Shown: positions 7,333-35,556 of the stretch, in pieces
Layout: each line of letters opens with the position of its first letter
Numbering within the stretch: position 1 is the stretch's first letter
Made by a program: the position numbers and the translations under genes
From: Gemmatimonadota bacterium
GTDB lineage: Bacteria; Gemmatimonadota; Gemmatimonadetes; Gemmatimonadales; Gemmatimonadaceae
Assembly: GCA_003171215.1 (NCBI GenBank)
Contig: PMYN01000062.1
Location: 36,234-71,789, forward strand
Direction of reading: 5' to 3'
Length of the DNA stretch: 35,556 nucleotides
Notes under the pieces: generated by a model
Databases searched by the model: none
Seen by the model: only the letters and a program-made list of their open reading frames with translations
Told to the model about the DNA's origin: nothing

Positions 7333-7894
7333 GTGGTACCTCCACGAGCCATGCGGCAATGGCGTCAGGTGTGCGATCGGTCGGTGCGAGGTCGCGAACG
7401 ACAGGGCGGGGCAGTGCAAGGCGGCGGGCCAGCGCATCGTCGCTCCACCACGTTCGCCGACCCTGCCAAGCGCCCGCACCGGCTGTTCGATAGGCGGCGA
7501 TGGCACGCGGTTCTGCAGTCGCGCCGGTGATACGAAGAAAGAGATCGCGTGGGCTGATGCGGATGTCTTTGCCGAACTTCTTGTTCGGCAGGGCGTCGTC
7601 ATCGAGGACCGCTCGACGCTTGCGACCGAGAAGGAACGCGACATGCTCCGGACTGAGCCACACAGCGCGGTGCCAGAGCCATTGCTCCAACGTGATCCCC
7701 GGCGGCGGCACCTCAAACTCGTCATCGCCGTCCGCGATGAACCACCGGGTCCCTCGGCGTACGGCGCCTCCGACGCTCACATCGGCGGCGTGCGTAGACG
7801 CTGGGGGCTCGGACACGGTCGGTGCTGATGGTGCCGGTGCCTCCGGCCGAACGGTGGGCTCGAGAAAATCAGACCGACGCGCTTTGCGTCCCAT
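7322..7894 (-). CDS. Excisionase-like helix-turn-helix protein
   Basis: This 190-residue protein overlaps the integrase start by 11 bp. Its N-terminal 45 residues are proline/alanine-rich and probably disordered. Residues 79-122 have the pattern of a MerR-like 'HTH_17' excisionase domain: WLSPEHVAFLLG, a turn with basic residues, then a wing FGKDIRISPRDLFLRI, comparable with the usual 'lt.eevAelLgvs...IPr.dl..fl'. A second helical region follows, with WWSDDALARRLALP. In this position it probably sets the direction of recombination or regulates int. Assignment to excisionase function is inference from fold and location. The ATG at 7894 has no clear ribosome-binding sequence. Confidence 0.65.
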   Translation of the reverse strand: MGRKARRSDFLEPTVRPEAPAPSAPTVSEPPASTHAADVSVGGAVRRGTRWFIADGDDEFEVPPPGITLEQWLWHRAVWLSPEHVAFLLGRKRRAVLDDDALPNKKFGKDIRISPRDLFLRITGATAEPRAIAAYRTAGAGAWQGRRTWWSDDALARRLALPRPVVRDLAPTDRTPDAIAAWLVEVPRGS

Positions 7895-11717: not shown

Positions 11718-11720
11718 TTG
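11705..11720 (+). promoter_or_regulatory. Strong ribosome-binding site deciding a TTG start for drmD
   Basis: GGAGGA at 11705-11710 lies 7 bp before TTG at 11718. No ATG or GTG nearby in this frame has comparable spacing, so TTG is the likely start codon. Confidence 0.7.
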
Positions 11721-14700
11721 ACCGGTGTACCCGCCATTCGAGATCTTCCCGAACGCCTGCCAAACGTTGGCGAACTCGTGCAAGTGCGTTCGCGCCGCTG
11801 GCTCGTCGAGGAAGTCGTCGCTGCACCGGTCGCCGGCCAGTCCTCACTCGTTCGTCTTGCCTGCGCGGACGATGACGCCCAGGGCCAGTCCCTCGACGTC
11901 TACTGGGACTATGAGCTCGACCGGCAGATCCTCGAAGAAGAGGGCTGGAACGATCTGGCTACGAAAGGCTTCGATGCGCCGCGCCAGTTCGCCGCGTTCC
12001 TGCACACGCTGCGGTGGAACTGCGTCACGGCCACTGACCCGGATCTCTTTCAGGCCCCGTTCCGTGCCGGCATCAAGATAGAGGCGTACCAGATGGAACC
12101 GCTGCGCAAAGCGCTGCGGCTGCCGAGGGTCAACCTGTTCATCGCCGACGACACGGGCCTCGGCAAGACGATTGAGGCCGGCCTGATCGCCCGTGAGTTG
12201 CTTCTCCGCCGGAAGGCGAAGGCCATCGTGGTGGCTGCGCCGCCCTCGGTGCTCGAGCAGTGGAAGGCCGAGCTCGAGGAGCGGTTCGGCCTCATGTTCG
12301 AGGTGCTCGACCGCGAATACCTGACCCGGATGCGTCGTGAGCGTGGCTTCGGGGTTAACCCGTGGCGCACCCATAGCCGCTTTCTCGTATCGCACAATCT
12401 GCTGATTGACCCGACGTACGCGGACCCCATGCGCGAATGGCTGGGGCCACTCCTGCCAGGCAGCCTACTCATCCTCGATGAGGCGCACCATGCGGCGCCT
12501 TCCAGCGGGGGACGCTACGGCATCGAAACGAAGTTCACGAGAGCCGTGCGCGACCTATCGGGCCGATTTGAGCATCGCCTCTTTCTCTCGGCCACTCCAC
12601 ACAACGGCCACTCGAACAGCTTCTCGACGTTGTTGGAATTGCTAGACCCGTATCGATTCACTCGCGGCGTCGAAGTACGCGGCAAGAAGTCGTTAGAAGA
12701 TGTAATGGTTCGGCGCCTCAAGGAGGACATCCGGGAAATCCAAGGCGGTTTCCCAAGACGTCTCGTCGAACGGATAACCCTCGACGGCCTCCCTGCGGAC
12801 GCTCCTGAACTCGTCCTCTCTCGTTTGCTTGACGAGTACCGGACCGCCCGCGATGAACGTCTGGCCAGTACCACGCGCCGGGCGCGGGCCGCGGCAGGTC
12901 TCTTGGTCGTCGGGCTGCAGCAGCGTCTGCTTTCCTCCACCGAGGCGTTCGCCAGATCACTCAAGGTTCACCGGGCCACAGTGGAACGGCAGTGGGCGAA
13001 AGGTCTAGCGGCGCCCGCTGACCGTGCAAAGACCGATGATGCCGAGAACGGCCTGTTTACCATCGCGCCCGACGCCGACGACGAGCGGAGCGAATGGACT
13101 TCGGACGAACTGGAGGCCGACGAGAAGGCGCAAATCGAAGCTGCAACGGCCGCGTCGGAGTCTGGCTCGACAAGAGACGCGGCGGCCGAAGCACTATGGC
13201 GCCGCGAGCAGGCGCTCCTTGATCAGATGCAGGAGGTCGCCGAACAGTCTCGCCACCTCCCCGATGCAAAGATGCGCCGACTGGTGGACTGGGTCCGTGC
13301 GAACCTGTGCCCAGACCTGCCGTCATTCGGCAAACGCACGCACGGCACGCCCCCGATCTGGAACAACCGTCGCGTCCTGATCTTCACCGAAAATCGAGAA
13401 GGAACCAAACGCTACCTGAAGGACCTGCTCGAGCAGGCCATTGAGGGAACCGACCGCGCCGACGAACGCATCGAGGTCATTGACGGTCTCACAAACGGGG
13501 CTCGGCGCAAAGAGATTCAGCGCCGTTTCAACACCGACCCGTCGAGAGACCCGCTGCGCATCCTGCTGGCCACCGATGCGGCGCGCGAGGGCCTGAACTT
13601 CCAGGCGCACTGCACAGACCTGTTCCACTTTGACCTGCCGTGGAATCCTGGACGCATCGAGCAGCGCAACGGGCGTATCGACCGGAAGCTTCAGCCTGCC
13701 GACGAGGTACGTTGCCACTATTTCGTTCTGCCCCAGCGCGTGGAGGACCGTGTGTTGGGCGTGCTGGTCAAGAAGACCGAGACGATCAAGCGCGAACTTG
13801 GCAGCCTTTCGAAAGTGATCGACGACGACATCGAACGGCGGCTGGGGCAGGGCATTCGACACCGTGATGCCGACGCTCTCGCACGAGAAATCGAGCAGGC
13901 CGATCTCGACGCGGAGCGAAAGCGCGTCACCGCGGAGGAGCTCGACTCGTCCCGCGACCGCAAGGAAGATCTGAAGGCGCAAATCGAACGTTGTCGGACC
14001 CTGCTCGAGCAGTCACGCACTTGGGCCGCCTTCGAGGCTGCACCGTTTCGTGATGCGCTCTCGTGCTCACTCGAACTGCTCGGTGCCGATGCGTTATTGG
14101 AATCGAAGGACGAGGAGGGTCGTCGCGTGTGGACCTTTCCGTCGCTCGATCGGCGTGCGGCGGCCGACGCGAGTTGGGCCACCACGCTGGACACGCTCCG
14201 CGCCCCGCGCAAGCAGGACCAGAAGCTGGCCGACTGGCGACGCGAGGCGCCCATCAGACCCGTCGTCTTTGAAGATGCGGGCGTTCTCACCGACGAGACC
14301 GTACACCTGCACCTCGACCAGCGCGTCGCCCAGCGCCTGCTGGCCCGTTTTCGCTCGCAGGGCTTCATCCACCATGACCTGTCGCGTGCGTGTCTTGCCC
14401 AGGCCGCTGACTCAATACCTCGCGTGATCCTGCTCGGGCGCTTGTCGCTCTATGGCCAGGGCGCGGAGCGCCTCCATGAGGAGCTGGTGCCTCTCGCCGC
14501 TCGTTGGGTAGAACCGTCCCAACGGAAGGGGCCGCTTACGGCCTATGGGCGGGAGACGGAACTGAAGACGCTCGATCTTCTGGAACGCTCGCTGGGTGAC
14601 GGCAGCCGCCGGATGCCTGGCGAGGCGATTCAGCGCAAGTTGTTGCCCTCCGCGGCCCGCGATATCGAGGAGCTCTTGCCACAGCTCGAGCCACGCGCCG

Positions 14701-15026
14701 AAGAGCTGGCCGCCCTCGCGATAGCCAGACTCAAGAAGCGCGGCGAGACCGAGGAGAAGGACCTGCGCGAGACGCTGGAGCGGCAACGTACGCGCGTTGG
14801 CGAGAAGCTCGCGAAGAACGAGAAGGACTATCTGCAGCTTACCCTCGGATTTGACCAGGAAGAGAAGCGCCAGGTCGAGTCAGACATGCGCTCATGGCGC
14901 ACGCGACTCGAACAGTTCGACCGCGATCTTGTGCACGAGCCTCGTCGGATACGCGAGTTCTACGAGGTGCGTGCGCAGCGCATCGAGCCCGTGGGACTCG
15001 TCTATCTCTGGCCGGAGACGAACTAA
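11718..15026 (+). CDS. drmD: DISARM class 1 SNF2-type helicase DrmD
   Basis: DrmD is the SNF2/RapA-like ATPase that defines class 1 DISARM, a phage-defence system that restricts incoming DNA. The 1102-residue product has a helicase N-lobe with Walker A ADDTGLGKT at residues 143-151, the DEAH box at 254-257 and the SATPHNGH motif at 291-298. The C-lobe starts near residue 550 (RVLIFTENREG) and includes ATDAAREGLNFQ and the RIEQRNGRIDR motif VI near 645-655. Long charged helical segments fill the rest, as usual for the family. The start is TTG, supported by a strong ribosome-binding site. The stop overlaps the next ATG by one base, which ties it to drmMI. All key motifs are intact. Confidence 0.93.
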   Translation: MTGVPAIRDLPERLPNVGELVQVRSRRWLVEEVVAAPVAGQSSLVRLACADDDAQGQSLDVYWDYELDRQILEEEGWNDLATKGFDAPRQFAAFLHTLRWNCVTATDPDLFQAPFRAGIKIEAYQMEPLRKALRLPRVNLFIADDTGLGKTIEAGLIARELLLRRKAKAIVVAAPPSVLEQWKAELEERFGLMFEVLDREYLTRMRRERGFGVNPWRTHSRFLVSHNLLIDPTYADPMREWLGPLLPGSLLILDEAHHAAPSSGGRYGIETKFTRAVRDLSGRFEHRLFLSATPHNGHSNSFSTLLELLDPYRFTRGVEVRGKKSLEDVMVRRLKEDIREIQGGFPRRLVERITLDGLPADAPELVLSRLLDEYRTARDERLASTTRRARAAAGLLVVGLQQRLLSSTEAFARSLKVHRATVERQWAKGLAAPADRAKTDDAENGLFTIAPDADDERSEWTSDELEADEKAQIEAATAASESGSTRDAAAEALWRREQALLDQMQEVAEQSRHLPDAKMRRLVDWVRANLCPDLPSFGKRTHGTPPIWNNRRVLIFTENREGTKRYLKDLLEQAIEGTDRADERIEVIDGLTNGARRKEIQRRFNTDPSRDPLRILLATDAAREGLNFQAHCTDLFHFDLPWNPGRIEQRNGRIDRKLQPADEVRCHYFVLPQRVEDRVLGVLVKKTETIKRELGSLSKVIDDDIERRLGQGIRHRDADALAREIEQADLDAERKRVTAEELDSSRDRKEDLKAQIERCRTLLEQSRTWAAFEAAPFRDALSCSLELLGADALLESKDEEGRRVWTFPSLDRRAAADASWATTLDTLRAPRKQDQKLADWRREAPIRPVVFEDAGVLTDETVHLHLDQRVAQRLLARFRSQGFIHHDLSRACLAQAADSIPRVILLGRLSLYGQGAERLHEELVPLAARWVEPSQRKGPLTAYGRETELKTLDLLERSLGDGSRRMPGEAIQRKLLPSAARDIEELLPQLEPRAEELAALAIARLKKRGETEEKDLRETLERQRTRVGEKLAKNEKDYLQLTLGFDQEEKRQVESDMRSWRTRLEQFDRDLVHEPRRIREFYEVRAQRIEPVGLVYLWPETN

Positions 15027-18000
15027 TGGCGGGCGCCAAACTCGACCCGGAAGTCCTGGCGCACCTTGAGTGGCTCGGTTTTGTGCGTCCGACCGGCCTG
15101 GTGGTCTCGGCCCCAGCCTTGGTGCGTGCAGGGGCGATCCTCGATCGACGCGACACCGAAGGCCAGCGGTTGCTGCGGGCTTGCATTGAGGAAAGCGTAT
15201 TCGACGTTGATGAAGATCCGGTGCCGTACTTACCGGATTTTCGTTCGTTTGCGCGGTCCGTTTTGGGTTGGAGTTTTTCGCCCAAGGGCTACGCGGGCAC
15301 CGAGGAGTGCTCGATCCCGCCAGAGTTGGAGATCCCGCTCCCCGAGTACAGCGACTCGCTACGCCCGACCTTTGCGGTCCGGGAGCTAGACCCAAAGGAA
15401 GGGGCATCGTCGTGGCAGCTCGTCGTTCAAGTGCTCGACGTCGGCCAGGACTTTGAGCGAATCGCTCGCGGCCATGGGCAACTCGAGGCTTCCGCGCACG
15501 GTCGGATGGAGCGTCTGCTCCGACAGACTGGCGTCCCTGCCGGGCTGCTGTTCAACGGCCGTGGTCTGCGCCTCATCTCCGCGCCGCGAGGAGAGAGCTC
15601 GGGTTGGATCGACTTCTCCGTCGCCGACATGGTGCAGGTCCCGGGCCGGCCGATCTCGACGGCCCTCCGACTTCTCCTCAACGAGAATCGCCTGCTCAGC
15701 CTGCCACGCGCGCAGCGCCTCGCTGCATTGCTCGACGATAGCCGGAAGTTCCAGAACGAGGTGAGCGAACGGCTGGCCGAACAGGTGCTCCATTCACTGT
15801 ATGAGCTGCTGCGCGGATTTCAGGCAGCGCACAACTCGTCAAGGGGCGAACTGCTTCGCGAACCGCTCGCGGAGCACCCCGACGAGGTCTACCGCGCCTT
15901 GCTCACGGTGGTTCTGCGGCTCGTCTTTGTTCTGTTTGCGGAAGAACGGGACATGTTCTCGAACGATGGGACGTTTGAACGCTTCTACTCGCTGGCGGGC
16001 CTCTTCGACCGTCTGCGCGAGGACGCCGCGCTTTTCCCGGACACGATGGACCAGCGCTATGGGGCGTGGGCACAGCTCCTCGTCCTCTTTCGAATGATCC
16101 ACGACGGCGCTGATTCGGGTGCCATGCGGCTGCCCAAGCGCCACGGCGTCCTCTTCGACCCTGATCGCTTCAAGTTCCTCGAGGGGCGAGCGGCATCGGG
16201 CGCCCGACAGCTGCATGAGCGCATCGAGCCGCCGCTCGTGCCCGACGGCACCATCTATCGTGCCCTCGAGAAGCTCCTCATCCTTGACGGCGAGCGCATC
16301 TCGTACCGCGCGCTCGACGTAGAGCAGATCGGCTCGGTCTACGAGACGATGATGGGGTTCCGCCTCGAGACGGCGACCGGCCGCTCGGTGGCGATCAAGG
16401 CCCAGAAGGCGCGTGGCGCGCCCACCGCGGTTGACCTCGAGGCGCTGCTGCGCGAGCCCGCGAATAAGCGCGAGAAGTGGCTCCAGGACTGCGCCGGCCG
16501 CAAGATAAGTGACAAGGTCGCGAAGGCCACGGTCGGAGCCGCAATGCTCGAGGACCTGCACGCGGCACTTCTGCCGGTGATCGATCCCGCTGCCACGCCC
16601 GACCTTGTGCCAAAGGGCGCAATGGTGCTGCAGCCGAGCGAGGAGCGCCGCCGCTCTGGCTCGCACTACACACCCCGCGCGCTCACCGAGCCGATCGTGC
16701 GCACGACGCTCGAGCCGATCCTCAAGCGACTGCGCGGAGCCGACGGCCGTCCGCCCCGGCCTGCGCAGATCCTCGACCTGAAGGTCTGCGACCCGGCGAT
16801 GGGCTCGGGCGCGTTCCTCGTCGAGGCCTGCCGGCAGCTCGGCGATGCGCTGGTCGAGGCCTGGCACGCTCACGGCGAGGTGCCCGCGATCCCGCCGGAC
16901 GAGGACGAGGTGATTTTCGCGCGCCGGCTGATCGCACAGCGTTGCCTCTACGGCGTGGACCGAAACCCTGTGGCTGTGGACCTCGCCAAGGTCTCACTCT
17001 GGCTCGTGACGCTGGCCAAGGACCATGCGCTCACCTTTGTGGACCATGCGCTGCGGCACGGGGACTCGCTGGTCGGGCTCTCGCGCAAGCAGATCGAGGC
17101 CTTCCACTGGGATACGACTATCACGTGGGACAGCCCGTTTCGAACGCTAATGCGTGATCAGTTACGCACCGTCGCGGGTCTACGCCAGCGGATTCGCGAG
17201 GCTGGCGAGGCCGTCTCGGATTGGGAGCGGCGCGACTTGTGGGACGAAGCGCAGTGCGAGTTGAGCAAGGTGCGACTCTTCGGGGATCTCGTGCTAGCGG
17301 CGTACTTCGAGGGGGAGAAACCGAAGGACCGGGAGCGGAAGCGGAGCGAATACGTGAGCGCAGTTGTCAGCGGAGAGGCTGAGCGCTATCGCGGCTGGCT
17401 TGAGGAGCGACGGCACGCCGACCCGCCCCTCGCGCCGTTTCATTGGGAGATCGAGTTTCCCGAAGTGTTCGAGCGGGAGAACCCAGGCTTCGACGCGATC
17501 GTGGGAAACCCGCCGTTCGCCGGCAAGAACGCGGTTGTCGCCGGGAACGTCGCGCACTACCCGGAATTCCTACAAGACCTGCACGCCGAGAGCCACGGCA
17601 ACGCCGACCTCGTTGCGCACTTCTTTCGGCTCGCCTTCGACCGACTTCGTAAAGACGGCGCCTTTGGCCTCATCGCAACGAACACCATCGGTCAGGGCGA
17701 CACCCGCTCGACCGGACTGCGCTGGATCTGCCAGCACGGCGGCGAGATCTTCGCCGCCACCAAACGCGTCAAGTGGCCGGGGCTGGCCGCAGTGGTAGTG
17801 AGTGTGGTCCACGTGAGCAAGGGTTCAGTTCGTGGACTTAGGCGGCTCGACAATCGGGAGGTCGCAACGATCACTGCGTTCCTCTTCCATCGTGGCAGCC
17901 ACGAGGACCCTGTCCGGCTCGCGAGCAACGCGGGAAAGAGCTTCGTCGGGAGCTATGTCCTCGGTATGGGCTTCACGTTCGATGACTCAGACACGAAGGG

Positions 18001-19012
18001 CGTCGCCACGTCGCTCGCCGAGATGCGGCGGCTAATCGCAAAGGACTCTGGCAATCAGGAAGTGATCTTTCCATATATCGGCGGTGAGGAAATCAACTCA
18101 AGCCCCACGCATTCTCACCATCGCTTCGTCATTAACTTCGGCGACAGAAGTCAGGAAGAGTGTCAGCGACGGTGGCCGGACCTCATGGCTATCGTCGAGG
18201 CCAAGGTCAAGTCCGAACGGCAGGCACTTCCTCCAAAGAACAGTTGGAATCGAGATGTTGCCGCGCGCTGGTGGCAGTTTGGAGCCGTTCGGATCGGCCT
18301 ATATCAGGCGATCACCGGCCTCTCACGTTTTCTTGCGCATCCCAATGTCTCGCAGAACCTCGGCTTCGCTTTCTTGCCCGCAGGAACGATCGTCGGTATG
18401 CCTCACAACGTGTTTGCGCTGACTGAGTTTCAGTCGTTCTGCGCCCTCCAGTCCCGCCCGCACGAGCTCTGGGCGCGGTTCTTCGGGTCGTCGATGAAGG
18501 ACGATCTCCGTTACACCCCCTCCGACTGCTTCGAGACCTTCCCCTTTCCCGAGAACTGGGATACCAACGCCGCTCTTGAAGCCGCAGGCAAGGCCTACTA
18601 CGAGTTCCGCGCCGCGCTGATGGTCCGGAACGACGAGGGCCTGACCAAGACCTACAACCGCTTTCACGATCCCGACGAACGCGACCCGGAGATCGTGAAG
18701 CTCCGTGAGCTGCACGCCGCCATGGACCGCGCCGTGCTCGATGCCTACGGCGGGAACGACATCTCGACCGAATGCGAGTTCCTCCTCGACTACGAGATCG
18801 ACGAGGAGGAGTGGGGCAACAAGAAGAAGCCGTACCGCTACCGCTGGCCCGACGAGGTCCGAGACGAGGTGCTGGCACGACTCCTCGAATTCAACGCCAA
18901 GCGTGCGCAGGAGGAGGTGGGTTCCGGCGTTGCGGCGGCAGCGAAGAAACAAGACAAGAAGGCGGCGAAGCGTGGGCCCAGGGAATCAGCTACAGGGGAT
19001 CTCTTCTCATGA
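15026..19012 (+). CDS. drmMI: DISARM class 1 N6-adenine DNA methyltransferase DrmMI
   Basis: DrmMI is the host-marking methylase of class 1 DISARM, which is thought to let the cell tell its own DNA from phage DNA. The 1328-residue protein resembles type IIG/Eco57I-like enzymes: a long N-terminal helical part, a SGSHYTPRALT segment near residue 543, SAM-binding motif I DPAMGSGAF at 589-597 and the catalytic adenine-methylase motif NPPF at 828-831. A TaqI-type target-recognition region lies in the C-terminal third. An N-terminal nuclease domain is not evident. The frame is open upstream to 14894, but the ATG at 15026 overlapping the drmD stop is the natural start. The stop overlaps drmA by 4 bp. 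The recognition sequence cannot be read from the protein. Confidence 0.92.
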   Translation: MAGAKLDPEVLAHLEWLGFVRPTGLVVSAPALVRAGAILDRRDTEGQRLLRACIEESVFDVDEDPVPYLPDFRSFARSVLGWSFSPKGYAGTEECSIPPELEIPLPEYSDSLRPTFAVRELDPKEGASSWQLVVQVLDVGQDFERIARGHGQLEASAHGRMERLLRQTGVPAGLLFNGRGLRLISAPRGESSGWIDFSVADMVQVPGRPISTALRLLLNENRLLSLPRAQRLAALLDDSRKFQNEVSERLAEQVLHSLYELLRGFQAAHNSSRGELLREPLAEHPDEVYRALLTVVLRLVFVLFAEERDMFSNDGTFERFYSLAGLFDRLREDAALFPDTMDQRYGAWAQLLVLFRMIHDGADSGAMRLPKRHGVLFDPDRFKFLEGRAASGARQLHERIEPPLVPDGTIYRALEKLLILDGERISYRALDVEQIGSVYETMMGFRLETATGRSVAIKAQKARGAPTAVDLEALLREPANKREKWLQDCAGRKISDKVAKATVGAAMLEDLHAALLPVIDPAATPDLVPKGAMVLQPSEERRRSGSHYTPRALTEPIVRTTLEPILKRLRGADGRPPRPAQILDLKVCDPAMGSGAFLVEACRQLGDALVEAWHAHGEVPAIPPDEDEVIFARRLIAQRCLYGVDRNPVAVDLAKVSLWLVTLAKDHALTFVDHALRHGDSLVGLSRKQIEAFHWDTTITWDSPFRTLMRDQLRTVAGLRQRIREAGEAVSDWERRDLWDEAQCELSKVRLFGDLVLAAYFEGEKPKDRERKRSEYVSAVVSGEAERYRGWLEERRHADPPLAPFHWEIEFPEVFERENPGFDAIVGNPPFAGKNAVVAGNVAHYPEFLQDLHAESHGNADLVAHFFRLAFDRLRKDGAFGLIATNTIGQGDTRSTGLRWICQHGGEIFAATKRVKWPGLAAVVVSVVHVSKGSVRGLRRLDNREVATITAFLFHRGSHEDPVRLASNAGKSFVGSYVLGMGFTFDDSDTKGVATSLAEMRRLIAKDSGNQEVIFPYIGGEEINSSPTHSHHRFVINFGDRSQEECQRRWPDLMAIVEAKVKSERQALPPKNSWNRDVAARWWQFGAVRIGLYQAITGLSRFLAHPNVSQNLGFAFLPAGTIVGMPHNVFALTEFQSFCALQSRPHELWARFFGSSMKDDLRYTPSDCFETFPFPENWDTNAALEAAGKAYYEFRAALMVRNDEGLTKTYNRFHDPDERDPEIVKLRELHAAMDRAVLDAYGGNDISTECEFLLDYEIDEEEWGNKKKPYRYRWPDEVRDEVLARLLEFNAKRAQEEVGSGVAAAAKKQDKKAAKRGPRESATGDLFS

Positions 19013-22000
19013 ACACGCGGTCCGATCGCAGCGCGCCCGCTGACTCCGTAGAGGTGCGCGCGCGGCTAGTCGAGGCACTCAAACTCGATCTCGTGGGCCC
19101 TTGGGCGGGTCATGCCTACTCGACCGAGAAGCTCCCTGGCAGGGAGCGCCCCTCGAATCGCTACCTGACTGGTTTCCTCATCCCCTCGGGTACGCCGCCG
19201 GAGAAGAGCGGTGATAGCGATGAGGACGAGGATGAGGGCGTAGTGCCCGAGTCGGCTGGCCTCATCGAGGAGTCGAACGAAGAGCGCAAAGCTGCGAAGA
19301 AGGGGTTCTTCCCATCATCGATGGGCTTGAGCTTCCTTGTTCCGCAGGGAGCGCGCGAGATCGCCGTCACCGTACGCTGGGGCGAGTATACCACCGAGAG
19401 GGTTGAAGAGGACGGGGAAGCGCTCGACGTCTGGCAGCGCGCACCGCGGGAGGAACTGGTCTCGGTTTCACTGGATGGGGCACCAGACCCGGCGGCCCAC
19501 CGCATCCGTGGCTCTCGGGGGCTCCATCTCGAGGTCGTCGAGCGACAGATCGAGGCAGAGGACCTCGAGGGACGCATTCCTGACGGAACGCGCTCGGTCT
19601 CGGTGTTTCTCGTCAACCATCGCGAGCCGGTAAAGGAGAAGGACGGAGAGCCGGACCTGGCCTACGCGTTTCAGCCAGAGCTTGAGGTGCGGAGCGAGTG
19701 CGCCTTTGTACCGCGCCCCGATCTTCGTGGTGCTCGATCGCAAGAGTGGGATGAGCGGGTCTCTGACCTCCACTATGCCGACACCCCAGAGTATGCGACG
19801 GGCCACGGCATCTCGGCGGAATGGGAGATCGTCGATGGGGCCTGTCATGTACTGCGCACCGCGTGGATTCCGTGCGCTCAAGTAGAAAAGACTGAAACCG
19901 TGAAGATGCCGGGAGTCGAGCTCTCCATGCAGGCGCTGGGAGCGCTGCCCAACGGTGCTGCTGTGGCGGCTGCACTGACCCCGCTCGTGGTCAAGTATCG
20001 GGAGTGGATTGAGGTGGCGAGGGCAGGCGCCGCGTCGCTAGAGCAGCAGCAACGAGAGTCAGCGGAAGAGCTCCTTCGACTTGCTGGCGTAGCAGCCACG
20101 CGGATTGAGCGCGGCATTTCAGTCCTGAACAGCGATGCCAACGCGCTTGATGCCTTCCGTGTAGCGAACCGCGCCGTCGCTCGGGCGCTGCGGAAGCGGC
20201 TGAAGATAGAGGAACCCGAGTGGCGTGCATTTCAGCTCGCCTTCGTCCTGCTGAATCTTCCTGGGCTCGCTGACCCCAACGATGCAAACCGCAATACCGT
20301 GGACCTGCTGTTCTTCCCCACCGGTGGCGGAAAGACGGAGGCGTACCTCGGGCTCGCCGCGTTCGCGATGGTACTGCGGCGGCTACGTCATCCTGGCGAC
20401 CATGGGCGGGTTGGGGCCGGCGTGAGCGTGATCATGCGCTACACGCTGCGCCTACTTACTCTGGACCAGCTTGGACGAGCCGCCGGCCTGGTGTGCGCGC
20501 TTGAACTCGAACGCGAGCAGGATGTCACTCGGTACGGTGAATGGCCATTCGAGATCGGATTGTGGGTGGGAAAGGCCGCCACGCCCAACGTGCTCGGGTA
20601 CAAGGGGTACAAAGGATCGGGCGACGCACGCTCGAAGGTGCGCCACTTCAAGAGCGACCCAAAGGGCAGGCCCTCGCCCATCCCACTCGAGAACTGCCCG
20701 TGGTGCGGCACGCGCTTCGAACCTGACTCATTCAATCTCCGGCCCGACGACAACCATCCGCGCGAGTTACGCATCGTGTGTGCGAACTTCGAATGCGACT
20801 TCGCGCGAGACCGACCGCTGCCGATTATCGCCGTGGATGAGCCTATCTACCGAAGGCTTCCGGCGTTTCTCATTGCCACAGTGGACAAGTTCGCCTCGCT
20901 CCCGTTCGTGGGTGCAGCAGGAATGCTGCTCGGCGGCGCAGACCGATACGATGCGTCGGGATTCTTCGGGGCTGCGGAGCCCAACCTAGGAACGCGCTTG
21001 GCGGAGCCGCTTCCTCCGCCCGACTTGGTGATCCAAGACGAGCTGCACTTGATCGCGGGTCCGCTCGGGACGATGGCGGGGCTCTACGAGACGGCCATTG
21101 AGGAACTGTGCACACGGCAGATTGACGGCCGCACCGTGCGACCCAAGATCGTTGCTTCCACCGCGACTGTTCGCCGGGCGCAGGACCAGATTCAGGCGCT
21201 CTTTGCTCGACCGCTCACCCAGGTATTTCCTCCTCCGGGCCCTGATCGGCGCGATTCGTTCTTTGCGCACACGGTGCCGGCCTCCCAAGTTCCCGCTCGC
21301 TTGTATGTGGGCATTGCGTCTCAAGGTCGCAATCCGAAGGTCATGATGCGGAAGGTGCTGCTGGCACTCATGGGTGCCGCAGAGCGTGCCTACCGCGACG
21401 CCGGCGGGGAGACGAACGAGAGCAACCCCGCCGATCCGTACATGACCATGCTCGGTTACTTCAATAGCCTGCGTGAGTTGGGCGGTGCGCGACGCATTCT
21501 GGAGGAAGAAGTCCAGAACACCATGAAATCGTATGGCGCGCGCAAGCGCATTGGTGAAAATCGCGGGCTGTTTCAGGACCGAAAGACCTTCACCGAGGTG
21601 CTCGAACTCACCTCCCGTGTCTCCACCGACAAGGTCGCGGAGGCACGTCGTCGCCTGGAAGCTCCGTTCCACAAGATCTACCAACGCGTGGACTGTGCGA
21701 TCGCGACGAACATGATTTCGGTCGGCCTGGATATTCCCAGGCTTGGGCTCATGGTGGTGCTCGGCCAGCCCAAGACACACGCCGAGTACATCCAGGCGAC
21801 GAGCCGTGTCGGGCGAACGGATAGCGGGCCAGGGCTCGTGGTGACGTTGCTCAACGTCCACAAACCGCGAGATCGCTCCCACTACGAGCGTTTCCGGCAC
21901 TACCACGAGACGTTCTACCGCTCGGTGGAGGTGGCCAGCGTCACGCCGTTCGCTGCGCGTGCGCTCGACCGCGGCTTCGCCGGGGCGCTCGTCGCTCTGG

Positions 22001-22389
22001 CTCGTCATATCCTGCCGGCCCTGGCACCAGCGAGGGGCGTGGAGCAAATCGCGACTGTTCGGCCGGAGCTTGAACGCCGGCTTCTTGACGCCTTCTTGAG
22101 CAGGGTGCAGGAGCAGCCGTTCGCGAGTGATGACGAGCGCAACGAACGGCTCCGGAGCGTGCAGAATCGCGTCGTGGACCTGCTTGATTCCTGGCGCAAG
22201 GTGTTCGACGACTACCATTCGGTGGCCGTCGCAATGCAGTACCAGAAGTACGAACTGAAGGACGCGAAGCCGCTGCTGCGTGATATGCTGGACGAGGTGT
22301 TCGAGAGCGAACACCATCGAAAGTTCCGGGCGAATAGGTCGCTGCGCGACGTGGAGCCCAATGTGAACCTCTTCCTGAGAACCCTGTGA
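19009..22389 (+). CDS. drmA: DISARM helicase DrmA
   Basis: DrmA is a core DISARM protein present in both classes; with DrmB it forms the DNA-sensing and translocating complex. The 1126-residue product has Walker A with GGGKT at 439-443 (FFPTGGGKTEAY), a four-cysteine probable zinc site (Cys563, Cys566, Cys591, Cys596), the Walker B box DELH at 677-680 and the C-terminal helicase motifs NMISVGLDIPR and QATSRVGR (929-936). The N-terminal 400 residues have no obvious enzyme motif. The ATG at 19009 overlaps the drmMI stop (ATGA), so translation is coupled. The length and motifs agree with known DrmA proteins; nothing appears broken. Confidence 0.93.
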   Translation: MNTRSDRSAPADSVEVRARLVEALKLDLVGPWAGHAYSTEKLPGRERPSNRYLTGFLIPSGTPPEKSGDSDEDEDEGVVPESAGLIEESNEERKAAKKGFFPSSMGLSFLVPQGAREIAVTVRWGEYTTERVEEDGEALDVWQRAPREELVSVSLDGAPDPAAHRIRGSRGLHLEVVERQIEAEDLEGRIPDGTRSVSVFLVNHREPVKEKDGEPDLAYAFQPELEVRSECAFVPRPDLRGARSQEWDERVSDLHYADTPEYATGHGISAEWEIVDGACHVLRTAWIPCAQVEKTETVKMPGVELSMQALGALPNGAAVAAALTPLVVKYREWIEVARAGAASLEQQQRESAEELLRLAGVAATRIERGISVLNSDANALDAFRVANRAVARALRKRLKIEEPEWRAFQLAFVLLNLPGLADPNDANRNTVDLLFFPTGGGKTEAYLGLAAFAMVLRRLRHPGDHGRVGAGVSVIMRYTLRLLTLDQLGRAAGLVCALELEREQDVTRYGEWPFEIGLWVGKAATPNVLGYKGYKGSGDARSKVRHFKSDPKGRPSPIPLENCPWCGTRFEPDSFNLRPDDNHPRELRIVCANFECDFARDRPLPIIAVDEPIYRRLPAFLIATVDKFASLPFVGAAGMLLGGADRYDASGFFGAAEPNLGTRLAEPLPPPDLVIQDELHLIAGPLGTMAGLYETAIEELCTRQIDGRTVRPKIVASTATVRRAQDQIQALFARPLTQVFPPPGPDRRDSFFAHTVPASQVPARLYVGIASQGRNPKVMMRKVLLALMGAAERAYRDAGGETNESNPADPYMTMLGYFNSLRELGGARRILEEEVQNTMKSYGARKRIGENRGLFQDRKTFTEVLELTSRVSTDKVAEARRRLEAPFHKIYQRVDCAIATNMISVGLDIPRLGLMVVLGQPKTHAEYIQATSRVGRTDSGPGLVVTLLNVHKPRDRSHYERFRHYHETFYRSVEVASVTPFAARALDRGFAGALVALARHILPALAPARGVEQIATVRPELERRLLDAFLSRVQEQPFASDDERNERLRSVQNRVVDLLDSWRKVFDDYHSVAVAMQYQKYELKDAKPLLRDMLDEVFESEHHRKFRANRSLRDVEPNVNLFLRTL

Positions 22390-22414
22390 CTGCCTTCATG
22401 GGGGAGGTCCGCGC

Positions 22415-24208
22415 GTGAGCAACAAAGCCGACGGACAGATACGGCGTGGGCAGGTCATCACTACTTACGGCCCCGGCGCACTCATCGACCTCCCGAAGGA
22501 GTCCGCCATAGTCGGAGGCCTTGATACGTGGCCGAAGGTCAGTGACCTCCAAGAGATCATCGAGACCCGACTCACGCAGAAAATGCAGCTCATGACGGGC
22601 GTTCCGGCACCGCGGTTATATGCGCCACCTCCTGATACTGAAGTCTTGGGCAAGTTCCCCCTTGGCATCGTGGCCTGGCGGTTTCCGGAATGGTTTGTTG
22701 TTCAGGACGCAATCGACGATTCTAGTCGTACGCGCTCCCGCCGATTGGTGAATCGGAGAGCGCTCGACGACAAAGGGCGGTTTGAGGGCAAGTCGGTGGT
22801 AGCGACACGCTTTGTGCGAGCATGCGTAAAGGGACACGTGGACGACATCGACTGGCAGCAGTATGTACATGGCATCGAGGACGGCTGCAAGCGTCCACTC
22901 TGGCTCGATGAGCGCGGCACCAGCGGCGACTTGGCCGAGCTCAATGTCCGGTGCGAGTGCAAAAAGTCCCGCGGGTTGTACGAGGCGACGGTCATCGAGG
23001 CCAATCCGCTCGGGACCTGCCGTGGGGCACGCCCTTGGCTCGGCAAGAACTCGAGAGAGGATTGCAAGCTGCCAAGCCGGCTTCTGATTCGCACGGCATC
23101 AAACGCGTACTTCCCCCAGGTGGTGAGTGTGCTGTCGTTGCCGGACCGGGGGACCGCAGTCGAGAGAGTGGTGCGCGACCTTTGGGACGACCTGCAGATC
23201 GTTGATGATGCGGCTGACCTTTCCCTTCTCAAGAAGAAGCCGAAGATCGCAGAGCGGCTTTCGCCGTTCTCGAACGAGGAGATCCTGACGACTGTTGAGC
23301 AGGTCAAGCACGGAAAGGTCGGCGACAAGCCGGTGAAGCAGGTGGAGCTCGAGGCGCTGCTCGCGGCGCCCGAGGGATTCGGCGACGATGTGCCCGTTGA
23401 TCCTAACTTCCACGCCCGTCGGCTTCCGGCCGGCGTCTGGCGCAAGAGCACTCGATACGACGGCATCGAGGCAGTCATCCAGCTTCATCGTCTGCGCGAG
23501 GTGCTGGCACTCGTCGGGTTCACGCGACTCGAGGCCGTCACCCCGGACATCAACGGCGAATACGAGACCGACGTCGAACGAGCCCAGATCGCCCTGGAGC
23601 CGCGTTGGTTCCCTGCGGTAGAGAACCGGGGCGAGGGGGTGTTCATCCAGCTTCGAGCGGCGGCCATGACGAGCTGGGCCAAGCGGCCGGGGGTGCAACG
23701 GCGGGTCGAGAGTCTCGCGTTGGGCCACGCGCGGTGGATGGAAGACCGCAAGACGAAGCGTCTGTTCCCCGGTGGGCCGTACGTTCTGTTGCACACGCTC
23801 TCCCACCTGCTCATCCAGTCGCTGGCAATGCGCTGTGGGTACCCTGCCAGTTCCATCCGAGAGCGGGTGTACGCCGACCCGGACACGGAGCGCTACGGTG
23901 TGCTGCTGTACACGGGTAGTCCGGACGCGGACGGCACGCTCGGAGGCCTGGTAGCCGAGGCGCGACACATGGAGGACCATTTGACGCAGGCGCTGCGGAT
24001 GAGCGCGCTCTGTTCGAATGACCCCATCTGTGCGCAGCACGAGCCCGGAAAGAGTTTCGAGGGACGGCTGCTCCACGGAGCTGCGTGTCACGGCTGTGCC
24101 CTCGTTGCGGAGACGTCCTGCGAGATGAGGAACGACTATCTCGACCGGGCGCTGGTGGTGCCCGTGTTGGGTCTCGCCGACGCCGCGTTCTTCGCGGGGC
24201 ACGCGTGA
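22415..24208 (+). CDS. drmB: DISARM protein DrmB (DUF1998)
   Basis: DrmB is the DUF1998 partner of DrmA and a core component of all DISARM systems. The 597-residue product begins with the very characteristic RRGQVITTYGPGALIDLP segment followed by IVGGLDTW. The C-terminal DUF1998 domain spans about residues 440-590, with LLHTLSHLLIQSL near 458 and a cysteine set (Cys533, Cys539, Cys558, Cys561, Cys569) that probably binds zinc. The GTG at 22415 is preceded by GGAGG at 7 bp. The gap of 25 bp after drmA is the largest inside the DISARM operon. The stop overlaps the drmC start. Confidence 0.94.
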   Translation: MSNKADGQIRRGQVITTYGPGALIDLPKESAIVGGLDTWPKVSDLQEIIETRLTQKMQLMTGVPAPRLYAPPPDTEVLGKFPLGIVAWRFPEWFVVQDAIDDSSRTRSRRLVNRRALDDKGRFEGKSVVATRFVRACVKGHVDDIDWQQYVHGIEDGCKRPLWLDERGTSGDLAELNVRCECKKSRGLYEATVIEANPLGTCRGARPWLGKNSREDCKLPSRLLIRTASNAYFPQVVSVLSLPDRGTAVERVVRDLWDDLQIVDDAADLSLLKKKPKIAERLSPFSNEEILTTVEQVKHGKVGDKPVKQVELEALLAAPEGFGDDVPVDPNFHARRLPAGVWRKSTRYDGIEAVIQLHRLREVLALVGFTRLEAVTPDINGEYETDVERAQIALEPRWFPAVENRGEGVFIQLRAAAMTSWAKRPGVQRRVESLALGHARWMEDRKTKRLFPGGPYVLLHTLSHLLIQSLAMRCGYPASSIRERVYADPDTERYGVLLYTGSPDADGTLGGLVAEARHMEDHLTQALRMSALCSNDPICAQHEPGKSFEGRLLHGAACHGCALVAETSCEMRNDYLDRALVVPVLGLADAAFFAGHA

Positions 24209-24987
24209 TTGCGACCCTGATTGATCTTCCAAGCCATCTGCGTGCGCGCTTGGCGAGTGCGCTCGAGTCTGGGCAACTCGCGATGCCGTGTACGGTCGTT
24301 TCGTTGCGGTCGGTTCTCGGGAGCGCAGAGCACATCGAGGAAGTGCGGATTGCGCTCGCAACCTTGGAGCAAGGGGGCATGAGTGGCGTGGCCATCGCCG
24401 CGTGGATTCGCGGCGTTGAGGCGGCGACATCCCGAGCGCTCCGGCCGGACCTCGTCTGGTCTGGCCCGGAGGTGCCGGGGTTGCACGCGCGCGACACGCG
24501 CCGTGTCTACGAGGAGCTGTTGGGGTCCGCCGAGCGAAGCGTGCTCGCGACTACCTACGCGTTCTTTGATGGTCCGAAGGCATTTCAGGTGTTAGCGGCA
24601 CGTTTGGACAAGACGCCGGGACTTCAGGTCACGCTGCTGCTCAACATCCAGCGCAGGCGCGGCGAGACGACAAAGGCTGAAGACCTGATACGCCGATTTG
24701 CGGACCGCTTCTGGTCCACGGACTGGCCGGGGACCTCGCGGCCGAGCGTGTTCTACGATCCGCGCGCGTTGGAATTGGAAGGACCCGGTGGCGTGTTGCA
24801 CGCGAAGGCGGTGGTGGTTGACCACGAGGCCGTGTTTGTGACGTCGGCCAATCTCACCGAGGCGGCGCTTGATCGCAACATCGAGATGGGACTCCTGCTA
24901 CGCGATCGGGCGTTGGCGGCCAGCGTTTCTCTCCACTTCCACACGCTGATTGAGCGTGGGATGTTGCATCCGTTGCCGGCGAGTTGA
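24205..24987 (+). CDS. drmC: DISARM phospholipase D-like protein DrmC
   Basis: DrmC is the PLD-superfamily component of DISARM; it is predicted to be a nuclease, but published work found it is not strictly needed for protection. The 260-residue protein has a typical PLD fold pattern: VYEELLGSAERSVLATTYAF near residues 107-125 and an HKD motif with His199, Lys201 and Asp206 followed by VTSANLTEAALDRNIEMG. Only this one full HKD motif is visible, so an active site would need a dimer. The GTG at 24205 overlaps the drmB stop (GTGA). It is the last gene of the DISARM operon; a 92-bp gap follows. Confidence 0.92.
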   Translation: MIATLIDLPSHLRARLASALESGQLAMPCTVVSLRSVLGSAEHIEEVRIALATLEQGGMSGVAIAAWIRGVEAATSRALRPDLVWSGPEVPGLHARDTRRVYEELLGSAERSVLATTYAFFDGPKAFQVLAARLDKTPGLQVTLLLNIQRRRGETTKAEDLIRRFADRFWSTDWPGTSRPSVFYDPRALELEGPGGVLHAKAVVVDHEAVFVTSANLTEAALDRNIEMGLLLRDRALAASVSLHFHTLIERGMLHPLPAS

Positions 24988-25079: not shown

Positions 25080-27182
25080 ATGAAAGCTACGGAAGCAAAA
25101 CTTCTCGGATTCCTGCAGAAATCGCCGCAGTTCATCATACCGATCTACCAGCGCGCATACTCCTGGACTGACAAGCAGTGTCGCCAACTGTGGGATGACA
25201 TCATTCGAGCCGGGTCGAATGAGGCGATCAGCGTTCATTTCATCGGGTCCATCGTGTATGTGGAACAGGGGCTCTCGCAGGTGTCGCATCGGGCGCCTCT
25301 GCTGGTGATCGACGGGCAGCAACGGCTCACAACCGTTTCGTTGCTCCTCGAGGCTTTGGCGCGCGCGTTCGGAGAGACCGATTTCATCGACGATTTCTCG
25401 GCCGCCAAGATCCGCTATTACTGGCTCACAAACCTTCACGAGGAAGGCGATCGCTACTTCAAGCTGCTTCTCTCTCAAACCGACAACGGGTCGCTCAAGG
25501 CGCTGATTCGGAATGGCGAACTGCCGCATGAACCATCGCTGCGTATAACGCAAAACTTCGAGCTCTTCACTGAACTCCTGAAAGCGCAGAAGGGAGACCT
25601 CGGGCCCGTTTGCCGAGGGCTCGCGAAGTTGGTGGTCGTGGACATTGCCCTCAACCGCGACCAGGACAACCCGCAGCTCATCTTCGAGAGTATGAACTCG
25701 ACGGGGAAGGAGTTGAGTCAGGCGGACCTCATTCGAAACTTCGTCCTCATGGGTCTCGAGCCTCACCTCCAGACGCGTTTGTACGAGGAGTTCTGGCGCC
25801 CGATGGAACAGGACTTCGGACAAGAGGCCTATGGAACGCAGTTCGACAGCTTCATGCGCCACTACCTCACGCTGCGTTCGGGAGAAATACCCCGCGAGAG
25901 CGACGTCTATGAGGCCTTCAAAGACTACGCCCGATCCAAGCCCGTACTGGACGCAGGAATCGAGGCGTTGGTCAAAGAGATTCGCGCGTTCGCACGGTAC
26001 TTTTGCGCGATGGCCCTCGGTGCCGAGGAGGATGCGGCCTTGCGCCAGGGTTTCCACGATCTGCGCGAACTCAAGGTTGATGTGGCGTATCCGTTCTTGT
26101 TGGAGCTCTATCACGACTACGCGAGCAACGTTTTGAGTGCCGGTGAGTTTGAGCTGGCTGTCCGATTGATCGAGGCGTATGTGTTCCGCCGGGCCATCTG
26201 CGCGATCCCGACGAACTCGATGAACAAGACGTTCGCGACGTTTGGACGGGCGCTCAAGAAGGAGCGCTACCTCGAAAGCCTTCGGGCACATTTCCTCACG
26301 TTGCCATCATACCGACGGTTCCCCGGTGACGACGAGTTCCAGCGCGCGTTGCGCACGCGCGATCTCTATCATTTTCCGCGTCGATCCTACTGGCTCCGCC
26401 GCCTGGAAAACCACGACCGTAAAGAGCGAGTGGCAGTGGATGAGTACACGATCGAACACATCCTGCCGCAGAATCCCAACCTATCGGCTGCGTGGAGGCA
26501 GGCCCTCGGGTCCGAGTGGGAGCGTGTGCAACAGCAGTGGTTGCATACGCTCGGCAACCTGACGTTGACCGGATACAACGCCGAATACAGTGACCGCTCG
26601 TTCGCAGAGAAGCGTGACATGACGGGTGGCTTCAGCCAGAGTCCGCTGAAACTCAACGCCGGGCTCGGCCAGCTGACGGATTGGAACGAGGCAGCCATTG
26701 AAGAGCGAGCAGGACGGTTGGCGGCCCAGGCGATCACCGTATGGGCAGCGCCGATTCTCGATGCAGCTGTGCTCGCTGAATATCAACCACAGAAGCCGTC
26801 AGCGGCTCCTGGCTACAGCATCAATGATCATCCGAATCTGCTCAATCCTGCGATGCGGCCTTTGTTCGAGACGTTCCGCCACGAAGTGCTCGCCCTCGAC
26901 CCATGCGTGAGCGAGTCGTTCATGAAGTTGTACGTGGCGTACAAGGCCGAGACGAACTTCGTTGATGTGGTGCCGCAGGCGAGTCGTCTGCGGCTGAGCC
27001 TCAACATGGCGTTCGCTGACATCAACGACCCGCAGGGACGGTGCAGGGATGTGACCGGTCTCGGGCGCTGGGGTAATGGTGATGTTGAAGCCGAACTGAA
27101 GACGCTTGACGAGTTGCCATACGTTCTCGGGCTGGTGCGCCAGTCATTCGAGCGCCAGATGGGGGAGGGGGGCCAGCAGTAG
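25080..27182 (+). CDS. GmrSD-like type IV restriction enzyme (DUF262-DUF1524-DUF5655)
   Basis: Proteins of this architecture, such as GmrSD and the BREX-associated BrxU, use a nucleotide-dependent DUF262 domain and an HNH nuclease domain to cut modified phage DNA. In this 700-residue single-chain version, IPIYQRAYSW near residue 19 and DGQQRLTT at 78-85 mark the ParB/Srx-like DUF262 nucleotide site, and the NSTGKELSQADLIRNF segment follows near 206. The HNH-like DUF1524 domain shows EHILPQNP (His460) and LGNLTLTGYNAEYSD near 490-505. The last 100 residues, including YVAYKAETNFVDVVPQ and DINDPQGRCRDVTG, fit DUF5655. All motifs look intact. It lies on the DISARM strand 92 bp downstream, so it adds a second layer acting on modified DNA. 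The substrate preference is inferred. Confidence 0.88.
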   Translation: MKATEAKLLGFLQKSPQFIIPIYQRAYSWTDKQCRQLWDDIIRAGSNEAISVHFIGSIVYVEQGLSQVSHRAPLLVIDGQQRLTTVSLLLEALARAFGETDFIDDFSAAKIRYYWLTNLHEEGDRYFKLLLSQTDNGSLKALIRNGELPHEPSLRITQNFELFTELLKAQKGDLGPVCRGLAKLVVVDIALNRDQDNPQLIFESMNSTGKELSQADLIRNFVLMGLEPHLQTRLYEEFWRPMEQDFGQEAYGTQFDSFMRHYLTLRSGEIPRESDVYEAFKDYARSKPVLDAGIEALVKEIRAFARYFCAMALGAEEDAALRQGFHDLRELKVDVAYPFLLELYHDYASNVLSAGEFELAVRLIEAYVFRRAICAIPTNSMNKTFATFGRALKKERYLESLRAHFLTLPSYRRFPGDDEFQRALRTRDLYHFPRRSYWLRRLENHDRKERVAVDEYTIEHILPQNPNLSAAWRQALGSEWERVQQQWLHTLGNLTLTGYNAEYSDRSFAEKRDMTGGFSQSPLKLNAGLGQLTDWNEAAIEERAGRLAAQAITVWAAPILDAAVLAEYQPQKPSAAPGYSINDHPNLLNPAMRPLFETFRHEVLALDPCVSESFMKLYVAYKAETNFVDVVPQASRLRLSLNMAFADINDPQGRCRDVTGLGRWGNGDVEAELKTLDELPYVLGLVRQSFERQMGEGGQQ

Positions 27183-27989: not shown

Positions 27990-28493
27990 ATGCGTAAGAA
28001 GATGCTCCCCTCAACGAAGCAGAAGTCCCGCGGCGCGCGCGGCTACATCCCCGTCTCGAAGACGGACAACTGGGCCACCCCGCAGTATCTCTACGACGAA
28101 TACAATGCGAAGTACCAGCTGACCTGCGATGCGGCGGCCTCGGCTCGCAACACCAAGTGCCCGAAGTTTTTCACGAAGAAGCAGGACGGACTGAAGCAGG
28201 ACTGGGGCACCGAACGGGTGTGGTGCAACCCGCCGTACGGCCGCGTGCTCGGAAAGTGGATGCAGAAGGCGGACGACGCGTGCCGCGCCGGCGCGACGGT
28301 CGTTATGCTCGTCCCGTCCCGCACCGACACGAAATGGTTCCACAAAATCGCGATGAAGCGCAAGAAAGTGTTCCTGAAGGGACGGGTGAAGTTCGGCAAC
28401 GGCAAATCGCCGGCGCCGTTCCCGAGCCTGGTCGTGGTGTTCACGCCGAGAGCGCGCCGGCGCGGCGCGGCGGGCACGGCGGCCACGCGCTGA
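27990..28493 (+). CDS. Phage-type DNA N6-adenine methyltransferase (Dam family)
   Basis: The 167-residue product matches the small phage N6-adenine methyltransferases of the Dam type found in many prophages and satellites. It has the family opening DNWATPQYLYDEYNAKY, a CDAAASARNTKCPKFF segment and the catalytic NPPY at residues 80-83, followed by a VVMLVPSRTDTKWFH strand-helix element. The C-terminal end is basic. Such enzymes usually methylate element DNA, perhaps to avoid restriction. It stands alone on the plus strand between a divergent gene and a strong hairpin, so it is a single-gene transcription unit. Target sequence unknown. Confidence 0.87.
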   Translation: MRKKMLPSTKQKSRGARGYIPVSKTDNWATPQYLYDEYNAKYQLTCDAAASARNTKCPKFFTKKQDGLKQDWGTERVWCNPPYGRVLGKWMQKADDACRAGATVVMLVPSRTDTKWFHKIAMKRKKVFLKGRVKFGNGKSPAPFPSLVVVFTPRARRRGAAGTAATR

Positions 28494-28585: not shown

Positions 28586-30106
28586 CTAGGTCGGCGCGCC
28601 ATGCGTCCTCAGGCGCAGGCCCGTCCAGACCAACTCCGGCCGATTCCGTTCGCCGAACAGCGGCGCGCCGTCGTCATTCTGCTGACGGCGTAGCGCGCGA
28701 CCCAGCGCGATGGATGAGAGGGGCGCCCGATTGTGCCCCGATTGTTCGAACGAGGCGCGGTACGACGCGTAGAGCGCGCCGTGCGTTTCCTCGAACGAGC
28801 GCCCGACCTCGCAGGCCTCCGACATCCACTGGGCGACCGGGTCCTGGTCCTGCGCCCACTGGTTGCTTGCCGCTGCCACCGCGGCCGGCAGAGGGCCGAG
28901 CGATTGGCCCGCGCGCATGTACGCCTCCAGGCCGCGGACCATCCACGCGGCGATGCCGGGGAGCTCCGACGTGATGCGTGCGGCAAAGTCGGGGTCAGCG
29001 TCTCGCTGCGCTTGCGTGACGCGCCGCGTCAAAGGAACGATGCGCATGCGGTCTCGCATCGCGGGGCTCGTGTCCGACGTGCTGGGAGCGTGGTTCGTGG
29101 CGAGCCAGATTTTGCACTGCGGGCGAAAATCGAACGCGCCGCGATACAGGTGGCGCGCGGTGATCATGTCCACGCCGCCCGTGAGCTGCTTGATCAACTC
29201 GTCGTCGAGGCTGCGCCCCTTCGCGATCTCGCCCGCCGTGACGTAGCGAGCCCCGGCGAGCCGCGCGATATCTGGCGACGCCCCCGAGGGATTGACGGAC
29301 TGCTTCGCCATGAGCGACGCCGCCTGGACGTTGACGTGATACGGGGCGAGGACCGCCTGCAACGTGTCGAGCAACGTGGACTTTCCATTTCTCCCGTGCC
29401 CCACGAGCACCCAGAGCGCACGCGCATTCGTGTACCCCGTCATCGAATAGCCGGCGCACCGCTGGAGCCACGCGATCAGCTCGTGATCGCCGTTCAACGC
29501 GTAATCCAGAAACGCGTCCCAGGTCGGACATTGTGCGCTGGGGTCGAACGGAATGCTGATGACTCGCGTGAGCAAGTCGTCCTTGCGATGCGGGCGCAAC
29601 GCGCCCGTCTCGGCGTCGAGCGTGCCGTTCGCAAAGTTGACGAGGCCGGGGTGAGCGTCGAGCGAAGGAGCGGAGACCGCAAGCTGCGGATCGGTGGCCG
29701 CGTACTCGAGCACCGCTCGATGGCCCTTGCGGTCGAGCATCTGATGCACCGCTCGCCAGAGCGATGCTGCACGCTTGGTGTCGTCCGCATACCGACGCGC
29801 GTCGCGTGCGACCGCTTCCGACGTTTCCTCGATGCACGCGGTCAACTCGTGCCCGCACGCGGTGTCGTCGCACAGCCAGCGGGTGCCGTCCCACCGGAAC
29901 CAGTCCCGTCCGGGGACATGACAGATGCGTCCGGCGTGCATGGCCGCGAATCGTTTCGCGATCTTCGCGGGCGTCGCTTCGCACGCGCGTTCGAACCGCG
30001 CACGATCGACGTCGTCGCTCGTGGTCGCCGTGACGGCGTCCGTGACGGCAACCCCGATGGCGTCGCCGCGCGCGGAAGAGGAAGCGTTCGAGTTCGAGGT
30101 GGACAT
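28586..30106 (-). CDS. P4/D5-type primase-helicase (C-terminal helicase part)
   Basis: Proteins of the P4-alpha/D5 family start replication of satellites and plasmids. From the ATG at 30106 the product has 506 residues. It contains a D5 N-terminal domain at about 55-215 (DWFRWDGTRW, LVNFANGTLD, LLTRVISIPFDP), then an SF3 helicase core with Walker A GHGRNGKST at 236-244, an AGE acidic motif near 291, ATNH sensor at 336-339 and a C-terminal arginine-finger region (RDRMRIVPLTRRV). The N-terminal archaeo-eukaryotic or TOPRIM primase domain seen in full-length relatives is absent, so priming would need another protein. A longer frame upstream to 30220 looks non-coding. No strong ribosome-binding sequence was found at the start. 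Confidence 0.9.
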   Translation of the reverse strand: MSTSNSNASSSARGDAIGVAVTDAVTATTSDDVDRARFERACEATPAKIAKRFAAMHAGRICHVPGRDWFRWDGTRWLCDDTACGHELTACIEETSEAVARDARRYADDTKRAASLWRAVHQMLDRKGHRAVLEYAATDPQLAVSAPSLDAHPGLVNFANGTLDAETGALRPHRKDDLLTRVISIPFDPSAQCPTWDAFLDYALNGDHELIAWLQRCAGYSMTGYTNARALWVLVGHGRNGKSTLLDTLQAVLAPYHVNVQAASLMAKQSVNPSGASPDIARLAGARYVTAGEIAKGRSLDDELIKQLTGGVDMITARHLYRGAFDFRPQCKIWLATNHAPSTSDTSPAMRDRMRIVPLTRRVTQAQRDADPDFAARITSELPGIAAWMVRGLEAYMRAGQSLGPLPAAVAAASNQWAQDQDPVAQWMSEACEVGRSFEETHGALYASYRASFEQSGHNRAPLSSIALGRALRRQQNDDGAPLFGERNRPELVWTGLRLRTHGAPT

Positions 30107-35554: not shown

Positions 35555-35556
35555 CT

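Follow-up and report, generated by a model that had tools for sequence, protein, structure and literature searches.

The window, by which we mean the whole stretch of 35,556 nucleotides analyzed, carries an intact class 1 DISARM system that was horizontally acquired and forms part of the cargo of an integrase-bearing island, a reading to which we assign a probability of roughly 95%. It spans positions 36234-71789 of contig C126 (PMYN01000062.1) in a Gemmatimonadota assembly of 4.14 Mb and 162 contigs, and its right edge is the end of the contig. Five open frames, without any internal stop, occupy positions 11718-24987 of the window on the + strand:

11718..15026, + strand: drmD, SNF2/RapA-like helicase, 1102 aa, TTG start with GGAGG upstream
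15026..19012, + strand: drmMI, N6-adenine methyltransferase with an MmeI-type target recognition domain, 1328 aa
19009..22389, + strand: drmA, short-form YprA-type SF2 helicase, 1126 aa
22415..24208, + strand: drmB, DUF1998/MZB Zn-binding partner of DrmA, 597 aa, GTG start
24205..24987, + strand: drmC, PLD-family nuclease with one HKD motif, 260 aa, GTG start

The core trio of class 1 (drmA, drmB, and drmC) is adjacent, and drmMI and drmD lie in the same operon. The drmD/drmMI, drmMI/drmA and drmB/drmC junctions are overlaps of 1, 4, and 4 bp, respectively, and 25 bp separate drmA from drmB, in exact agreement with the overlaps of 1-4 bp and the 25-bp gap read in the first-pass annotation. The motifs expected of each protein were found: GLGKT, DEAH and SATP in DrmD, DPAMGSG and NPPF in DrmMI, GGGKT, DELH, STAT and QATSRVGR in DrmA, paired cysteines in DrmB, and HxKx4D in DrmC. 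The description of these motifs as intact was therefore sound, but its wording needed correction, since the Walker B box of DrmA is DELH and the DEAH box belongs to DrmD.

Profile searches with PADLOC, which had been proposed together with that annotation, and with NCBIfam assigned the genes to DISARM families with scores far beyond chance. PADLOC named all five proteins as DrmD, DrmMI, DrmA, DrmB, and DrmC. DrmD scored 1027 bits against NF038317 DISARM_DrmD (cut-off 610) and 1016 bits against PADLOC PDLC02621; DrmA, 1155 bits against the short-form model NF038325 DISARM_DrmAS (cut-off 950); DrmB, 548 bits against NF038324 (cut-off 240); and DrmC, 181 bits against NF038319 DISARM_DrmC_I (cut-off 133), with a further match to Pfam PLDc_2. 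No NCBIfam model matched DrmMI above its own cut-off, and this protein was identified by PADLOC PDLC02643 (1302 bits) and by the Pfam domains Eco57I, MmeI_Mtase and MmeI_TRD. Another YprA-family system (ARMADA, Dpd, or Druantia) or BREX, all sharing helicase and methyltransferase genes with DISARM, was also considered. ARMADA likewise has BrxHII/RapA-like and PglX-like genes (PMC12458937), and DrmD and DrmMI also matched BREX, Dpd and type IIG families, though less strongly. However, the profiles did not move the genes to other families: DrmA, DrmB, DrmC, and DrmD passed the DISARM cut-offs and failed those of Dpd and BREX. Moreover, the helicase and DUF1998 parts are on separate genes, which is a DISARM trait, and DrmA structures ranked first for the DrmA model described below, so that an origin in one of these other systems is extremely improbable. 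The operon is a complete class 1 DISARM, and this identification is robust.

The comparison with solved structures gave the same result. DrmA and DrmB matched the Serratia proteins of 7s9v (E=1e-170 for DrmA; E=2e-98 for DrmB against 7s9v_B), both aligned over most of their length, and the identity between the two DrmA proteins was 32-34% in the structural alignment. The AlphaFold model of DrmA had a mean pLDDT of 69 and a pTM of 0.66. Foldseek placed 7s9w (E=2.6e-61) and 7s9v first for this model, with a TM of ~0.7, and other helicases were far behind (E of 1e-6 vs 1e-61), which establishes the fold. For DrmD, DrmMI and the GmrSD enzyme described below, the search for solved structures gave distant relatives only. 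Residues 68-101 of DrmA are acidic, were modeled with low confidence and align with the end of the Serratia trigger loop (176-232); from this low confidence and the alignment, the trigger loop of DrmA would lie at about residues 68-101. The C-terminal arm is suggested solely by conservation. K627 of DrmA aligned with the DNA-contacting K803 of Serratia, while the position of Serratia R810 is a valine and so is not conserved. Additionally, an R-x-V at 1113-1115, inside an invariant C-terminal block, resembles the R1294/V1296 sensor of Serratia (PMC9142583), a likeness of sequence and not an alignment.

The Serratia sp. SCBI class 1 DISARM (PDB 7s9v/7s9w, PMC9142583) is one of the closest known systems. 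Both systems have DrmMI, DrmA, DrmB, and DrmC, with DrmA and DrmB on separate genes, and share the DrmAB fold and key motifs, an acidic disordered trigger loop and a C-terminal arm. By contrast, both methyltransferases are present in Serratia and drmMII is absent from the window, and the DrmA of the window is of the short form, without the N-terminal EVE-like domain. Only ~65 residues precede its loop, as in all of the relatives examined. This domain has been reported as usual in class 1 DrmA (PMC12458937), but it was not taken as defining, since NCBIfam recognizes the short form DrmAS. As the N-terminal extension is missing, the reading of modified bases by an EVE-like domain is inapplicable to this branch.

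Relatives were collected by scanning genome contigs with a DrmA alignment, which gave 27 loci from many phyla. The gene order was identical at every locus with a long enough contig, and all five genes were present in eight of them (L128, L129, L133, L137, L139, L147, L151, and L153), belonging to seven phyla. Together with the PADLOC, NCBIfam and structural matches, this bears out the claim that five complete genes stand in canonical order. The closest locus, L147 of Acidobacteriaceae bacterium palsa_357 (PLXE01000102), has the same order as the window and encodes proteins 81% (DrmD), 76% (DrmA), 75% (DrmB), 69% (DrmMI), and 69% (DrmC) identical. Among the 149 genomes searched from its own genus, family and order, the only other full-length relative was found in genome G024, and it was 52-54% identical; the 17 further genomes searched from the genus yielded no full-length DrmMI. 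In the DrmA tree, the window was grouped with rows from Acidobacteriota, Myxococcota and Pseudomonadota in a supported group of four (support 96/93). The horizontal history of the operon is established, and this grouping, together with the distant G024 relative within its own order, speaks for an exchange between phyla, subject to the caution that metagenome bins commonly call for.

The target recognition domain of DrmMI (residues ~976-1180) was 40% identical to that of the nearest relative vs 70-79% in the rest of the protein, and thus the methylation motif is probably different from that of this relative. Such a divergence, suggesting an exchange of the domain, is as expected under selection for new recognition motifs. 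Mobile DNA carrying class 1 DISARM is already documented: a DrmMI relative was found in 33 plasmid records, and the operon was present on the two plasmids inspected, one of which, pMARC5, lists no drmC. No DrmB match was detected in a phage collection. IMG/VR contigs contained distant DrmA relatives (32-45%), some of them with DISARM-like neighbors.

Between drmMI and drmA, 2-7 kb of extra genes were observed in L136 (5284-9893), L153 (6430-9401), L133, L137, L138, L142, L148, and L151. Read by eye, these are other defense or toxin-antitoxin genes, including a CD-NTase-like gene with patatin and DarT/DarG-like and ImmA/IrrE-like genes, and the junction is a possible insertion hotspot. In the window it has no extra genes.

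Directly after drmC, on the same strand and at a distance of 92 bp, a further defense gene was observed that was absent from the first-pass annotation:

25080..27182, + strand: fused GmrSD-type (DUF262+DUF1524) restriction enzyme with a C-terminal DUF5655 (Pfam GmrSD_N 125 bits, GmrSD_C 90 bits, DUF5655)

PADLOC classed it as Orf5 and HEC-06, and the DGQQR motif of DUF262 fused to a DUF1524 nuclease domain places it in the GmrSD family of type IV enzymes. Its strand and spacing would fit a single conserved six-gene system formed with DISARM, and there is a precedent in pEFER, where BREX and the GmrSD enzyme BrxU protect in complementary fashion (PMC8565348). However, a GmrSD gene was within reach of DISARM in none of the 27 related loci, the flanks examined at the palsa_357 locus included, the annotation of the two plasmid systems lists none, and the literature search found no GmrSD-DISARM pair among the papers covered. 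A six-gene system is accordingly very unlikely, and the enzyme is a neighbor outside DISARM and not a conserved partner of it. By analogy with pEFER, a gene so placed may provide a second layer of defense, directed at modified DNA.

The island that carries these genes is defined by the following features:

6000..6040, + strand: host tRNA-Arg(CCU), 5' part only, broken off in the anticodon loop and forming the left junction of the island (identical over 41 nt to the start of this gene in genome G010)
6115..7725, - strand: tyrosine integrase, start codon uncertain; the open frame extends beyond the region of protein similarity (Pfam Phage_integrase 61 bits, PHROG integrase 126 bits)
27990..28493, + strand: phage-type Dam N6-adenine methyltransferase (Pfam Dam 102 bits, PHROG 111)
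28586..30220, - strand: D5_N/DUF5906 primase-helicase, a satellite/phage-type replication gene (Pfam D5_N 111 bits, PHROG primase 330 bits)
35512..35556, + strand: 3' half of tRNA-Gly(CCC); right junction, at the exact end of contig C126 (host 5' half on C152, host 3' flank on C108)

The tyrosine integrase and the D5/primase gene confirm the integrase-bearing island with a satellite-type replication gene that had been proposed. In the closest relative, G010, the tRNA-Arg(CCU) gene is intact beside apt, and the homology of the window ends in the anticodon arm, diverging from position 6041. An integrase beside a split tRNA, with the empty site preserved in a relative, identifies an integrative element. 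No complete tRNA was found in the window, and an Rfam search gave no matches. None of the 17 further genomes from the genus had relatives of the D5 and integrase genes above the thresholds used. Other members of the element's own family were looked for in the order and the idea was rejected, as the D5 and integrase relatives there were unlinked and no more than 31-38% identical. Some ten small frames whose base composition is coding-like were observed on the - strand (30425-34642 and 8854-11045), and none of those tested had a Pfam, PHROG or PADLOC match.

The two ends of the island do not fall in one tRNA gene, being tRNA-Arg on the left and tRNA-Gly on the right. In this genome, elements have thus inserted into at least two tRNA genes, and one end from each of the two is joined in C126. 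The mismatch is either a real rearrangement or the product of a chimeric contig, and the DISARM operon is independent of the answer. A chimera, with the tRNA-Arg and tRNA-Gly parts taken from two elements and DISARM in one of them, stands at about even odds and concerns the carrier only. In its favor, in addition to the differing junctions, contigs C87, C141, and C162 all begin at this tRNA-Gly(CCC) 3' end, each with a different integrase, and the remaining halves of the Arg and Gly genes are on other contigs. By contrast, no internal junction is visible in the window, and a true rearrangement between two arrays would give the same picture. The claim of a tRNA-integrated, transferable carrier is thus supported in part, by the integrase, the replication gene and the split tRNA-Arg(CCU) on the left; that the island is a single intact transferable unit does not follow, because the ends belong to different tRNAs and the right one coincides with the end of the contig.

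The tRNA-Gly(CCC) locus was observed to be a serial array of elements (L042, L043, L045, L124, and L125). The other contigs of this array had no genes in common with the window except a distant DrmMI/PglX-like methyltransferase, 29% identical, at 10362-12200 of C141 (L123). From this methyltransferase, the Gly array may hold other defense cargo.

The displaced 3' half of tRNA-Arg(CCU) was located on C109 (L122) at 3665-3707, with a second copy at 4891-4934. An intact tRNA-Arg(CCU) lies ~190 bp before the first of these (C109:3405-3478), matching the G010 gene at 68/75 positions, and it was the only intact copy among the 30 tRNA loci inspected; no junction links C109 to the window. This arrangement, a broken tRNA-Arg(CCU) whose displaced 3' half has an intact gene close by, is reminiscent of tRNA-dependent integration, in which the target tRNA is not restored and the element brings a tRNA of the same isotype (PMC10865867). 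As in the tRNA-dependent lysogeny of actinobacteriophages described there, the core is short and in the anticodon loop, the host tRNA is split and not restored, and an intact tRNA of the same isotype is near the displaced 3' half; unlike those, the window is not a phage genome, and the two ends are on different contigs. By this analogy, a non-phage element could have destroyed the only native tRNA-Arg(CCU) in its anticodon loop and brought its own copy, leaving the host dependent on it and its defense cargo kept, although we consider this rather unlikely. The satellite-like, tRNA-integrated defense islands (PMC12458937) are alike in having an integrase at one end, a replication gene, YprA-family cargo and serial tRNA integration. 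They differ in their HUH Rep, where the window has D5/primase, in host phylum, and in their usual direct-repeat ends, which the element in the window does not have.

A decayed or silent operon, left as a relic on an immobilized island, would be compatible with the mismatched ends and with the upstream region, where only a weak promoter-like site was found. However, the five frames are open with intact motifs and tight junctions, and a divergence of 24-30% from relatives without stops or frameshifts points to purifying selection. Decay is therefore a slight possibility, and the operon is apparently a working five-gene system.

Given the match of DrmA and DrmB to the Serratia complex, the mechanism published for that system probably holds here too, by homology. 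In that model, DrmAB, itself autoinhibited, loads on DNA that is unmodified and either single-stranded or with a 5' overhang, hydrolyzes ATP, and blocks phage DNA or aids its degradation, with methylation protecting self (PMC9142583). We infer that DrmMI would methylate a specific adenine motif in the host DNA as the mark of self, and that the acidic disordered trigger loop would keep the DrmA-DrmB helicase complex off. When a phage enters or replicates, its single-stranded or 5'-overhang DNA would push this loop aside, and DrmAB would then load and translocate. Degradation of the phage DNA may fall to DrmC or to a nuclease of the host. DrmD, a RapA/SNF2-type ATPase, would have an accessory role; the literature has not settled what it does in DISARM, which counts against this explanation. 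The downstream GmrSD enzyme is probably an independent layer against phages with modified bases.

A class 1 DISARM that is intact and was acquired horizontally is added here to a phylum that has received little study, and the results indicate that the operon moves from phylum to phylum with exchange of its methylation target domain. As an ordinary instance of an established system, it changes the understanding of DISARM little. The carrier is the more unusual lead, and the split tRNA-Arg the best one: the tRNA-dependent reading, if true, would be a way for a defense island to make itself hard to lose.
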